Positions 22,070 to 34,105 of a stretch of DNA of 34,105 nt are shown here, piece after piece (the stretch's first letter is position 1; each line of letters begins with the position of its first letter). The notes beneath the pieces were generated by a model, which saw nothing but the letters and a program-made list of their open reading frames with translations, was not told the DNA's origin and did no database searches. Location of the stretch: the IMG/VR virus record IMGVR_UViG_3300042465_003850, positions 1 to 34,105 of that record. One strand, 5' to 3'. This DNA is from a virus. The position numbers and the translations under genes were made by a program.

Positions 22070-22213
22070 ATGAAAAATAATAAATTAGAATTAAATTTAA
22101 TAATTGAAATCTTATATAAATTGAGTAAAGATGAATTTTACTTTAAAAGCTATGCAAAAGATATTTTGAAAAGTTATATAAAACAGGAAGTTAAAAAGTT
22201 AAATAAATGTTAA
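22070..22213 (+). CDS. Small charged protein
   Basis: A 47-residue protein with amphipathic helices (LELNLIIEILYKLSKDEFYF, YIKQEVKKLNKC) and heptad-like leucines. It follows the 34-codon ORF by 8 bases. Composition and the clean start favour a real small gene. Function is unknown. Confidence 0.5.
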   Translation: MKNNKLELNLIIEILYKLSKDEFYFKSYAKDILKSYIKQEVKKLNKC

Positions 22214-22258
22214 AAATTAATTAACTACTATTATATTAATAAAGTAGTTGTATATTTG
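22214..22258 (+). promoter_or_regulatory. Early promoter module, copy 1
   Basis: TATATTTG (22251-22258) preceded by TATATTAATAAAGTAGTTG (22232-22250), almost the same sequence as in the module before 25783 and similar to the one before 30409. The start codon of the first gene of the operon lies 33 bases downstream. The -33 TTG is not matched here. Confidence 0.7.
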
Positions 22259-22291
22259 TCCAAGCAATAAAGCTAAAGAAAAACAAATATT

Positions 22292-23197: not shown

Positions 23198-23440
23198 ATG
23201 AAACAGACAGCGGTAGAATGGTTAGAAGAAAAGTTAATACAAGATAATATCTTTTCAACAGAAGATTGGGAATTGTTTCAACAAGCCAAAGAAATGGAAA
23301 AGGAACAACAAGGGTATAGTAAGGAAGATATGAAAAGAGCATTTTGTAATGGCGGACAGTTAGACCATTCTACTTTGACATCTACAGAATTTGGAACTAA
23401 ACTATTAAATAAATGGTTTGAACAATTTAAAAAAAAATAA
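23198..23440 (+). CDS. Small 'VEWLEEKL' family phage protein
   Basis: An 80-residue protein with AVEWLEEKL near the start and AKEMEKEQQ at about 30-38, a pattern repeated in many flavobacterial phages. A second copy of the family occurs in the cassette array at 33043 (PVEWLEERL...AKGMEKEE). The fold is helical; function is unknown. It belongs to the early operon and is followed by its neighbour after 1 base. Confidence 0.75.
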   Translation: MKQTAVEWLEEKLIQDNIFSTEDWELFQQAKEMEKEQQGYSKEDMKRAFCNGGQLDHSTLTSTEFGTKLLNKWFEQFKKK

Positions 23441-25671: not shown

Positions 25672-25732
25672 GTTAAAGTTTTGTTAAAGAATAATATAAT
25701 AGTTGTATATTAATAAAGTAGTGTTATATTTG
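25672..25732 (+). promoter_or_regulatory. Early promoter module, copy 2
   Basis: GTTAAAGTTTTGTTAAAG (25672-25689, two GTTAAAG repeats), then TTG (25703-25705), a 19-bp spacer TATATTAATAAAGTAGTGT and TATATTTG (25725-25732). It has the best match to the Bacteroidota consensus of the three modules. The first gene starts 50 bases downstream. Confidence 0.85.
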
Positions 25733-25782
25733 TCAAAGAATTAAGGAAGTGAATTACACAGCAAATTCTAAAACTAAAGATT

Positions 25783-30307: not shown

Positions 30308-30371
30308 TGTTAAAGTTTTCTTAAATTATTTAATAAGATAGTATTTTATTAATATAGTTGATGTATATTTG
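30308..30371 (+). promoter_or_regulatory. Early promoter module, copy 3
   Basis: GTTAAAGTTTTCTTAAA (30309-30325) resembles the upstream element of module 2. TTTATTAATATAGTTGATG precedes TATATTTG (30364-30371). The ATG at 30409 lies 37 bases downstream. Confidence 0.7.
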
Positions 30372-30408
30372 TACCAGAAATAAAGCGAAACACTAAAAAA
30401 TAGAAATT

Positions 30409-31660: not shown

Positions 31661-32371
31661 ATGATAGTCTTAGTAGATGCAGACAGCCTAATATGGTCAA
31701 GCTGCTACAAACAAAAAGAGCAACCAGACGATAAACAATATCATTCAATTGAAAATGCTAAATTAAAGTTTGACGAGGTATTTATGAAAATTATAAATAC
31801 GATTGAAGAGACACACGAAATAGACAAGGTTCTAACTTTTGCAAATGCATTAGGTAACTTTCGTAAACAAATATCTAAAAGCTATAAAGCAAATAGAATA
31901 GGGCGTGAAATACCACCGATACTAAATGAACTTCAAGCGTATGTTAAAGAGCAATATGAAAGTATATCAGGCTATGGAGTTGAAACTGATGACGTAGTAG
32001 CCACGTACTGGACAAACTTAACAAACACGTTCGGTCGTAATGAAGTTATAATAGTTAGCATAGACAAAGACTATAAGCAGTTGCCGTGCCTGATGTACGA
32101 CTACCATATAAAGAAGCAATGTTATTATGATATATCAAAAGAGCAATCATTATACAACTTTTACGAACAAATGATTATTGGTGATCCAGCTGACAATGTT
32201 AACTTTTGCAAAGGCTACGGAGTTAAATGGGTAGACAAAGCATTTAAAGACCTTGTAAGCGAATATTCTTTAGTTAAGGTAATATTTAGTCTATTTAAAA
32301 AGATATACAAGCACAAGGCACGTGAGAAGTTTATAGAATGTAAGTTATTATTAAAATTAAAAACAGAGTAA
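31661..32371 (+). CDS. FEN-type 5'-3' exonuclease
   Basis: A 236-residue protein of the PIN/FEN nuclease group (T5 D15-like). Metal-binding acids are in LVDADSL (D6, D8), VETDDVVA (107-114), SIDKDYKQL (133-141) and GDPADN (174-179), followed by a helix-hairpin-helix-like GYGVKWVDKAF. It removes RNA primers or flaps and degrades 5' ends for recombination. Its stop codon TAA is itself the first bases of the cassette half-site at 32369. Confidence 0.88.
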   Translation: MIVLVDADSLIWSSCYKQKEQPDDKQYHSIENAKLKFDEVFMKIINTIEETHEIDKVLTFANALGNFRKQISKSYKANRIGREIPPILNELQAYVKEQYESISGYGVETDDVVATYWTNLTNTFGRNEVIIVSIDKDYKQLPCLMYDYHIKKQCYYDISKEQSLYNFYEQMIIGDPADNVNFCKGYGVKWVDKAFKDLVSEYSLVKVIFSLFKKIYKHKAREKFIECKLLLKLKTE

Positions 32372-32410
32372 CGTTAAAGCATTGTCGTCAGGTGTCGACC
32401 AAATAAAGAC
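32369..32410 (+). repeat. Left half-site of a cassette junction (array start)
   Basis: TAAC (32369-32372), a 5-nt spacer and AGCATTGTC, then a GTCG/CGAC hairpin (32385-32388 / 32396-32399) and AAATAAAGAC (32401-32410). Site S1 has the same layout, with a TGTCG/CGACA hairpin followed by AAATTAAAGAC. No right arm with GTTA is found before the next gene at 32436. Confidence 0.45.
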
Positions 32411-32435
32411 TAATTTTTAAATTTAAAACAGAACA

Positions 32436-32858
32436 ATGAAAAAAGAAACAGACAATTCAGTTAAAGACCAAAACGCCACTTGCGACAATAATATGCTACC
32501 TGTTCGGTTTTTTTCGACAATTGAAGGCTATTTATATCCTCATACATATATTGGAAAATTCAAACATAAAATGAATTTTGAACAGGTAAAAGAAAATATC
32601 GCACACGCATTTTCGCTTGGAGCTTCTAAAATTAAGCTCTATGAAAATTACAGTAAAAAGAATGATTTTCTTGAGATAAATAAAGAAGATTTTTCAAAAG
32701 AGGAAATTGAAGCTGGCTTTCAAAAAATTCAATTAAAAAACAAGATTAAATTACTCGAAGATAGAAAAAGCAATAACAACAAATCTATTATTTTTTTTCA
32801 AAAAGCAAATGACAAAATAGACAAAGAAATCCTTTCGTTAAGCACTTTTGCAAACTGA
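32436..32858 (+). CDS. Cassette gene, hypothetical protein
   Basis: A 140-residue soluble protein. It has a low-complexity start, a compact alpha/beta segment (GYLYPHTYIGKFKHKMNFEQ, IAHAFSLGASKIKLYEN) and a C-terminal coiled coil (FQKIQLKNKIKLLEDRKSNNN). Its stop is 4 bases before the left end of site S1. No family is recognised. Single gene plus junction is the cassette pattern. Confidence 0.7.
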   Translation: MKKETDNSVKDQNATCDNNMLPVRFFSTIEGYLYPHTYIGKFKHKMNFEQVKENIAHAFSLGASKIKLYENYSKKNDFLEINKEDFSKEEIEAGFQKIQLKNKIKLLEDRKSNNNKSIIFFQKANDKIDKEILSLSTFAN

Positions 32859-32862
32859 CAGG

Positions 32863-32991
32863 TAACGTTTCGCTAGTAGGCGATGGTAGGGGTGTCGTGA
32901 ATCCCGACACCCTAAATTAAAGACCAATAATAACAAGTACAAACAATTAATAAATTAAACCCAATGCCCGACTATTGCTTACTAGCTGTTA
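32863..32991 (+). repeat. attC-like cassette junction S1
   Basis: TAAC (32863-32866) pairs with GTTA (32988-32991). There is a 5-nt spacer on the left and a 1-nt spacer on the right. The arm GCTAGTAGGCGATGG (32872-32886) pairs with CTATTGCTTACTAGC (32972-32986) over 15 positions with three G-T pairs. Inside, TAGGGGTGTCG (32887-32897) pairs with CGACACCCTA (32905-32914) with one extra G. Confidence 0.68.
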
Positions 32992-33042
32992 GCGTTTGTT
33001 GCGAATAATTTAAAACAAATATTAATTAAACAAACAAAAAAA

Positions 33043-33390
33043 ATGAAAACACAAACACCAGTAGAATGGTTAGAAGAACGATTAGATATTTTATTAGAAC
33101 TATTTCCAAGTCAATGGGAGGAAGTAAATAAAGAAATTGAACAAGCTAAAGGAATGGAAAAGGAAGAATCGGATGATTTATTATTAAATTTAATAAATTT
33201 AAACAAAAAATCAATTTCTGAAAATTGGAAAATGGAAGATGTGGGCGAGGAATTTTTTAAAGTATTTGCATATTCAGATAAACCAAGTATATCAAAATGT
33301 GAACATAAAAATAAAACACAACATTTTAGTGATGTATTTGGATGTTATATTTCGTGTACTACTTGTGGAAAAACAATTTTAAACAAATAA
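33043..33390 (+). CDS. Cassette gene, 'VEWLEERL' family with zinc knuckle
   Basis: A 115-residue protein. Residues 1-45 (PVEWLEERLDILLELF, IEQAKGMEKEESDD) are paralogous to the early gene at 23198. The C-terminus has CEHKNKTQHF and CTTCGK, a four-ligand zinc-binding arrangement missing in the paralogue. Being a phage-type gene inside a cassette array, it shows that phage genes can be cassette cargo. Function is unknown. Confidence 0.72.
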   Translation: MKTQTPVEWLEERLDILLELFPSQWEEVNKEIEQAKGMEKEESDDLLLNLINLNKKSISENWKMEDVGEEFFKVFAYSDKPSISKCEHKNKTQHFSDVFGCYISCTTCGKTILNK

Positions 33391-33395
33391 GAATT

Positions 33396-33470
33396 ATGAA
33401 AACTTTTTGGAGCAATAACGTCCGAGTGCTTGGCGAAGAAGCGGATAAACAAGCCCAAACTTTCGATTAA
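33396..33470 (+). CDS. Possible 24-residue peptide overlapping site S2
   Basis: ATG 33396 opens 24 codons (MKTFWSNNVRVLGEEADKQA...) that read through the left arm of S2. It may be an accidental ORF of the recombination site. Confidence 0.25.
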   Translation: MKTFWSNNVRVLGEEADKQAQTFD

Positions 33471-33543
33471 GCCTGAATTATAAAGACACAAAACAGATTT
33501 TAAATTACTAACCGAACCCGCTTTTTTGCCAAACACTTGTTAT
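33415..33543 (+). repeat. attC-like cassette junction S2
   Basis: ATAAC (33415-33419) pairs with GTTAT (33539-33543), with a 5-nt spacer on the left and a single T on the right. The 20-position arms 33425-33444 (starting AGTGCTTGGC) and 33518-33537 (ending GCCAAACACT) pair with one mismatch and two G-T pairs. The core GAATTATAAAGACACAAAAC (33475-33494) is shared with S3. Confidence 0.7.
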
Positions 33544-33572
33544 GTGCTGGGCGGTTCATAAAACTACAAAAT

Positions 33573-33965
33573 ATGATAGCATTAACGATTTTAAACACAA
33601 TAGCAATAGCTTACTTATTATATAAAAAAGGAAAGTTTTACATTGATTGGAGAAAAGACACCACATTTATAAAGAATACTGTGGTTGCATACCATATTAC
33701 ATTATGGAAAAAAACAAGCGGATTTTCAGCTAGTAGTGTTTATACTTTGGTAATCCCAATTAAAAACAAGATAAAATTTGAAAAGGAAGAAGAAATAAAT
33801 AGAATGATTGCTACTTATAGCCACCATAATAAATTACAAACCTTGTCCGCTAAATTTTATAGGTTAAAAACTTGGAATGAAGTAAGACAGTTTGAGAAAG
33901 ATTATAGCGTAGTGGATAGAAAAATTGTTGCAAACTTGGTTACAAATTTCGTTCCGAAGCAGTAA
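33573..33965 (+). CDS. Cassette gene, membrane-anchored hypothetical protein
   Basis: A 130-residue protein with an N-terminal membrane helix (IALTILNTIAIAYLLY) and a basic soluble domain (FYRLKTWNEVRQFEKDYSVV). ATG 33573 is used; the TTG at 33537 lies inside site S2. Its TAA stop is followed within 14 bases by site S3 at 33979. No family is recognised. Confidence 0.72.
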   Translation: MIALTILNTIAIAYLLYKKGKFYIDWRKDTTFIKNTVVAYHITLWKKTSGFSASSVYTLVIPIKNKIKFEKEEEINRMIATYSHHNKLQTLSAKFYRLKTWNEVRQFEKDYSVVDRKIVANLVTNFVPKQ

Positions 33966-33978
33966 CGTAGCCTTGCAC

Positions 33979-34105
33979 ATAACGTTCCGCAACTACACGT
34001 CTGTTGCGTAAAAGTACAAAACTAGCTTTCAGTTTAACACGGAATTGAAAGACACAAAACAACCATTAAATTAATCACAAATGTAGCAATAGCGTGTAAT
34101 TGCTG
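33979..34105. repeat. Terminal direct repeat, right copy
   Basis: Exact copy of 1-127. It begins with ATAAC, the left boundary of cassette site S3, and stops at the G that starts the GTTAT of its right boundary. See the left copy for interpretation. Confidence 0.95.

Follow-up and report, generated by a model that had tools for sequence, protein, structure and literature searches.

How single genes separated by foldable junctions come to stand in a row in a phage is the question raised by the window analysed here, an IMG/VR virus record of 34,105 bp, the ends of which share a 127-bp repeat. The window encodes a terminase, a portal protein, a tape-measure/endolysin-like protein, an exonuclease, an ERF protein and a NinG-like protein, and no tyrosine recombinase (PF00589) was detected in it or in most related phages. 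The reading favoured here, to which a probability of roughly 0.7 is assigned, is that of an integron-like cassette array on which a host integrase lacking the patch (I2), the additional domain specific to IntI, acts in trans. The first-pass annotation had proposed a cassette array carried without a phage integrase, with sites that might form a family other than IntI-type attC, and had considered mobilisation by a host recombinase. The former proposal is supported by covariance-model matches, by comparison of the slot among phages and by the absence of PF00589, and the latter appears probable, given that a patch-less recombinase adjoins the arrays found in hosts.

Array layout and site geometry

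All features of the array lie on the plus strand. The cassette slot is bordered on the left by a 5'-3' exonuclease gene (phrog_107; 31661-32371), the stop codon of which, TAA, is also the TAA of the TAAC (32369-32372) opening a degenerate site, S0 (32369-32498). The covariance model described below matches S0 at 32382-32488 (42.7 bits, E 4.5e-9); its outer ends were placed by eye, and its decayed 3' end reads GCTA, not GTTA. Then come the cassette 1 gene (32436-32858; 140 aa if the first ATG, located inside S0, is used), site S1 (32863-32991; 129 nt), the cassette 2 gene (33043-33390; 115 aa), site S2 (33416-33542; 127 nt) and the cassette 3 gene (33573-33965; 130 aa), with no family above cut-off for the products of cassettes 1 and 3. 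The window closes with a terminal copy of S3 (33979-34105), which is the 127-bp assembly overlap with positions 1-127, and site S3 itself (2-130; 129 nt) precedes the cassette 4 gene (146-358; 70 aa, zinc-ribbon-like by eye). Since this terminal overlap starts at S3, circular continuity across the site is inferred from the assembly only. The ends of cassette 4 are mutually complementary (GTTATAACTC at 127-136 and GAGTTATAAC at 357-366). On its right lies a conserved acceptor, TAAC-TATTCGCTAACCGCTATAAATGTATTACAATT (363-398), variable among phages to the left of TAAC and conserved to the right, followed by a gene (399-581; 60 aa) with homologues in 77 viral loci and a weak, below-cut-off match to DUF6290. 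The three junctions between single genes recognised by the first-pass annotation were placed correctly to a base or two; its picture of the array was incomplete in that the degenerate S0 and the acceptor had been missed.

Three further observations concern the window. The cassette 2 gene and the window's own gene at 23198-23440 are diverged relatives (81-88% DNA identity in pieces), and phage genes resembling each other in this way may be a sign that such genes can be captured as cassettes. In L199 and L007, as well as at window position 32436, the ORF has its first ATG within the site that precedes it, and the annotated proteins of such cassettes may have a site-derived N-terminus. Three related 73-nt repeats with TATATTTGT-like ends (22198-22270, 25672-25744 and 30311-30383) are perhaps phage promoters of the Bacteroidota type.

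S1, S2 and S3 (~127 nt) have a common geometry, TAAC-5nt-arm...arm-1nt-GTTA, and are the only stretches on the plus strand of the window to combine 5/1 spacers with eight or more of 10 paired arm positions; one weaker 5/1 match was found on the minus strand, and shuffled windows average 0.37. All three were recovered at ~80-99 bits and E 1e-17 to 1e-21 (S1: 79.6 bits, E 2.9e-17; S2: 99.3 bits, E 1.3e-21; S3: 85.5 bits, E 2.5e-17) by a covariance model whose training set, 30 sites of other phages and genomes, excluded those of the window; the model also added S0. S0-S2 were matched with filters off on positions 32000-33978; default filters on the whole window missed S1 and S2. A homologue of S1 was identified at L008:4184-4309 and homologues of S3 at L030:2535-2662 and in L253 and L256, while sites very similar to S2 occur in L004, in L005 and in Flavobacterium tegetincola DSM 22377 (L094). 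The site counts depend on the TAAC/GTTA ends, and in Polaribacter phage P12002L the 126-nt family was not seen, the best candidates being short.

The arms had been described as complementary within each site and different between sites, and geometry and covariation bear this out. The fold energies of single sequences, however, are only weakly better than those of shuffles (z -0.35 to -1.9), an outcome close to one named beforehand as refuting the cassette array, and the evidence of folding hence rests on geometry and covariation. The alignment of the 30 sites shows both partners replaced and pairing maintained in eight of nine arm pairs, a count inflated by the selection of well-paired sites, and an unguided RNAalifold run returned the same stem, extended to 24 pairs. 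A test that does not select for arm pairing was applied to 57 phage loci: when GTTA was placed by the complementarity of the cassette ends alone, the best arm partner was preceded by TAAC and five nucleotides in 28 of them, compared with 0.04 for the shuffled region. A conserved folded structure with little sequence conservation, as in attC, is therefore present in spite of the weak single-site energies. The extrahelical base of attC, on the other hand, is absent from these sites, the outer arms of which pair without a bulge and have a C-A mismatch at arm position 5.

Site arrays and recombinases of Bacteroidota

A site of the S2 type occurs in Flavobacterium tegetincola, together with the patch-less recombinase and the attI-like junction described below, and also in a 104-kb MAG-binned contig which, having baseplate proteins, is probably a large phage. 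In G001:C55 (L192-L195; 104.6 kb), a probable large phage from a small MAG, an array of ~13 sites adjoins genes that by eye are PRPP-synthetase-like, macro-domain-like and NADAR-like; tyrosine recombinases encoded elsewhere in this MAG are interrupted by in-frame TGA codons. The F. tegetincola contig with the array ends in the N-terminal part of what by eye is an apparently different tyrosine recombinase (L094, 5870-6100).

IntI exceeded the curated cut-off in 84 of 296 sampled Bacteroidota genomes, and the genomes rich in 126-nt sites are mostly not among these, G018 having both. At 1e-40, IntI was found in none of 150 sampled Flavobacterium genomes; the search controls were also blank, and the same query worked in the 296-genome sample. 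A search near the arrays of site-rich genomes led to another tyrosine recombinase, detected at 1e-40 in 93 of 292 sampled genomes (many of the whole genomes sampled are drafts) and nearly absent from IMG/VR. Of four cases of this enzyme, three exceed the NCBIfam cut-off for NF040815, and the scores stay below that for TIGR02249. The TIGR02249 profile matches it in two stretches, the part of the profile after position 180, which holds the patch, being missing and the second stretch starting from about 237; the sequence of the IntI4 structure matches in two stretches as well. The alignment shows the same: the IntI-specific additional domain, which was not found in the phage either, is absent from the recombinase beside the host arrays, the catalytic residues are kept, and many of the proteins have an extra N-terminal region of ~90 residues. 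In the tree the enzyme groups with IntI as against XerC/XerD with moderate support (91/73), and both its best curated match and its best sequence match among solved structures are of the XerA type (NF040815; PDB 5hxy). The phage of L092 has an ordinary phage integrase (L186, 6119-7342) besides its cassette array and acceptor.

Around 44 genes of the patch-less recombinase, 108 sites of at least 27 bits were found, 102 of which lie downstream and on the opposite strand despite more upstream sequence being available. Sites on the expected side are present in 32 of the 44 loci and lacking in 12, at some of which the contig ends. At IntI loci (20 genes), the same model gave seven matches of at most 30 bits, as against up to 114 bits beside the patch-less enzyme. 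In eight loci the first cassette begins (G/TTA) 91-107 bp past the recombinase stop codon, behind a TATAAAnnA/GTTA-like motif, so that in hosts an attI-like site does stand next to the recombinase gene; inverted repeats were noted by eye at several of these junctions. These data show that host sites are arrayed downstream of an IntI-related, patch-less tyrosine recombinase, with an attI-like junction ~100 bp past its stop codon. The arrangement is that of an integron in which the integrase reads towards the array, and with it the arrays beside a tyrosine recombinase that the first-pass annotation had recommended looking for have been located in Bacteroidota genomes. The phage itself has an acceptor and no integrase gene, hence no attI beside an integrase, and no similarity is evident between the phage acceptor and the host attI-like junction.

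Read in gene orientation, the spacers are 5/1 in phage sites (132/136), 1/5 in the host 126-nt sites (58 of 65 cassettes) and about 2/6, with a bulged base, in IntI-adjacent attC of Bacteroidota. A gapless 5/1 screen of IntI loci returned almost nothing because IntI-type sites carry the bulged base, and it was repeated with a bulge allowed. Since phage genes, unlike those of hosts, are inverted relative to the site, the phage sites have the same polarity on the other strand. The 5/1 asymmetry had been regarded as a hint of a distinct family; a distinction from IntI-type attC is supported, but a 4-nt asymmetry is in itself not unusual, as the 2/6 of IntI attC indicates. What sets these sites apart is that they have no extrahelical base and that the recombinase adjoining the host arrays is patch-less. 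Viewed as the reverse complement, the acceptor sits at the place of attI and gene 399 at that of intI. The inference drawn is that the sites of phage arrays are assembled in their normal polarity and that genes are retained only if inverted, as only then are they co-transcribed with the phage operon.

The alternative that survives best is that of an ordinary CALIN, in which the phage took cassettes from classical IntI integrons and IntI-type integrases move them. By layout alone (two or more attC spaced by less than 4 kb and no integrase close by), without IntegronFinder/HattCI scoring, the window fits this description. Spacer polarity is similar to that of IntI-adjacent attC, IntI does occur in the sampled Bacteroidota (84/296), and phage arrays of attC without an integrase are already known (Qi et al. 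2023, PMC9892861), five of six tested phage attC, one from a Polaribacter phage, having been recombined by IntI1 in E. coli (PMC9892861). However, the extrahelical base is missing from the sites, none of the sampled Flavobacterium genomes had IntI at 1e-40, and the scores under the site model are low at IntI loci and high beside the patch-less recombinase; this explanation is thus considered unlikely, if still to be reckoned with.

Cassette slot and exchange among related phages

For comparison of the slot, 80 relatives of the exonuclease gene were fetched. Close relatives of the window carry other cassettes, or none, between this gene and the acceptor: L007, which aligns with the window at 85-91% identity over the main stretches flanking the slot, holds a single short cassette in place of four genes, and L006 and L013 have no cassette at all. 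The acceptor is present in 66 of 74 examined related phage loci, each time after a different sequence. At TAAC its information content climbs to 2 bits per base, and it remains high through to the start codon; the bases before TAAC vary, the main exception being a T seven bases upstream, which is part of the cassette end. In a window-like phage, a long array lies between RecT/exonuclease and terminase (L184, 5400-12300).

In integrons, the two ends of a cassette form the outer stem of the cassette's own site in the excised circle. In 58 of 66 loci the ends alone suffice to define the last phage cassette, as GTTA+X...X'+TAAC, where X pairs with X' over a further 4-6 bases, which is the pattern shown by an integron cassette. 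In the window, cassettes 3 and 4 have complementary ends of their own and cassette 2 does not. Chaining gave 152 cassettes in 54 of 69 loci (median 343 bp, modal site length 126), with ORFs on the plus strand in 132 of 136 cases; the scoring behind these geometry counts carries a small preference for 5/1. In respect of usually one gene and one site per cassette with complementary ends, the arrays meet the definition of an integron.

The breakpoints are exact. L219 and L220 are 99.7% identical over 2.2 kb and then split precisely at the TAAC of a shared site, many acceptor pairs of 85-94% identity diverge at the TAAC of the acceptor or beside it, and a relative of cassette 4 in L025 has the same GAGTTATAAC end as the window, followed by a site instead of the acceptor. 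As far as phage comparison can show it in the absence of a recombination assay, cassettes are exchanged at exact TAAC/GTTA boundaries. The differing gene content and the boundaries anticipated by the first-pass annotation were thus found, and neither of two results that would have spoken against it was obtained: related phages clearly do not carry the same genes with unrelated intergenic sequence, and 5/1-spaced inverted arms are clearly not lacking in other genomes.

Another possibility is that the phage swaps cassettes with its own machinery for homologous recombination or single-strand annealing (ERF protein, NinG, exonuclease), the conserved site ends serving as short homologies. The window does encode ERF, NinG-like proteins and an exonuclease, and the breakpoints do lie at short conserved motifs; yet the motif is of 4 nt, site sequences differ widely with complementarity kept, and long chromosomal arrays of the same sites lie on a fixed side of a site-specific recombinase, which leaves this explanation decidedly improbable. 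Still less can be said for junctions produced as assembly chimeras at repeats common to several genomes. The 127-bp overlap of the window starts at S3, L213 and L216 likewise start at such a boundary (at TAAC), and L004 stops inside an S2-like site. However, real cassette variation would also break contigs at boundaries, and contig ends of this kind are, by inference, expected if cassette variants coexist in the sampled populations; moreover, the arrangement recurs in dozens of independent contigs, and the sites are also present in a cultured Flavobacterium. That the hairpins, which come after genes and can fold, are merely intergenic terminators or RNA elements is hardly tenable and had been disfavoured already, for the arms are ~100 nt apart, unlike those of an intrinsic terminator, an Rfam scan of the window had no match at gathering score, some sites extend over the starts of coding regions, and the two ends of a cassette are complementary with exact breakpoints.

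Proposed mechanism and relation to known systems

On the preferred reading, that of an integron-like array served by a host integrase, a cassette consists of one gene and a site of ~126 nt able, by geometry and covariation, to fold via its complementary arms, and cassettes occupy the slot between the exonuclease gene and the acceptor before gene 399. The patch-less host enzyme is inferred to recombine the folded sites and would insert or delete phage cassettes in trans during infection; phages may, again by inference, both take cassettes from and contribute them to a pool in which DNA methyltransferases are plentiful. Among 109 cassette proteins, 16-17 are DNA methyltransferases (family matches may overlap on one protein), for which an anti-restriction function is plausible, and most others are unknown. 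Phage and host cassette genes gave weak matches only, with no clear shared genes.

The findings suggest that a second kind of integron has been overlooked and is tapped by phages. The wider proposition, held at slightly better than even odds, is that of a second integron class widespread in Bacteroidota, including Flavobacterium, in which the integrase never had or has lost the patch and the sites have no extrahelical bases, many phages having evolved an acceptor dedicated to it, along with a cassette pool whose inverted polarity suits the way they are transcribed. The literature regards the additional domain both as a defining feature of IntI and as one it cannot do without (PMC9668308), and it is in this domain that the I2 helix docks the extrahelical bases of attC in its folded form (PMC7790495); in view of this supposed need, a patch-less enzyme acting on folded sites would be unexpected. 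Because the additional domain and the extrahelical bases fail, the system is not filed as an integron in the strict sense, although the other features are kept and it appears to work like one. In Bacteroidetes proper, IntegronFinder 2, whose targets are IntI and classical attC, recorded a single complete integron and otherwise only In0 elements (PMC9024848), and no earlier description of this site type or of a patch-less integron was found in the open-access literature, preprints excluded. Should the patch-less enzyme prove to be the integrase, a large cassette economy would have gone unnoticed so far. An IntI relative without the I2 helix, together with sites without extrahelical bases, would offer a natural test of how integrases came to folded single strands, and phages would be using the cassette system as a swappable cargo bay, DNA methyltransferases included.

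With the CALIN of Qi et al. 2023 (PMC9892861) the window shares single genes with folded sites in a phage, the lack of an integrase, methyltransferase cargo and the idea of a host integrase acting in trans. Those arrays, however, consist of classical attC recognised via IntegronFinder/HattCI, whereas the sites of the window belong to a different family. The present system further differs in the inverted polarity of its genes, in an acceptor that is conserved and occurs in many phages, and in the recombinase adjoining host arrays, which has no patch. Like sedentary chromosomal IntI integrons, it has a recombinase gene, an attI-like junction, head-to-tail one-gene cassettes, R and L arms and complementary cassette ends; unlike theirs, the recombinase lacks the patch, often has an extra N-terminal region and reads towards the array, and the place of the IntI-type extrahelical base is taken by the C-A mismatch. 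XerA-type tyrosine recombinases are the closest match in sequence, but we know of no cassette arrays beside XerA, whereas here the sites lie downstream in fixed orientation. Cassette integration outside integrons takes place at attG sites; phage cassettes are similarly inserted at a fixed target other than attI, but the phage acceptor, ~36 nt long, is strongly conserved and reused by many cassettes.
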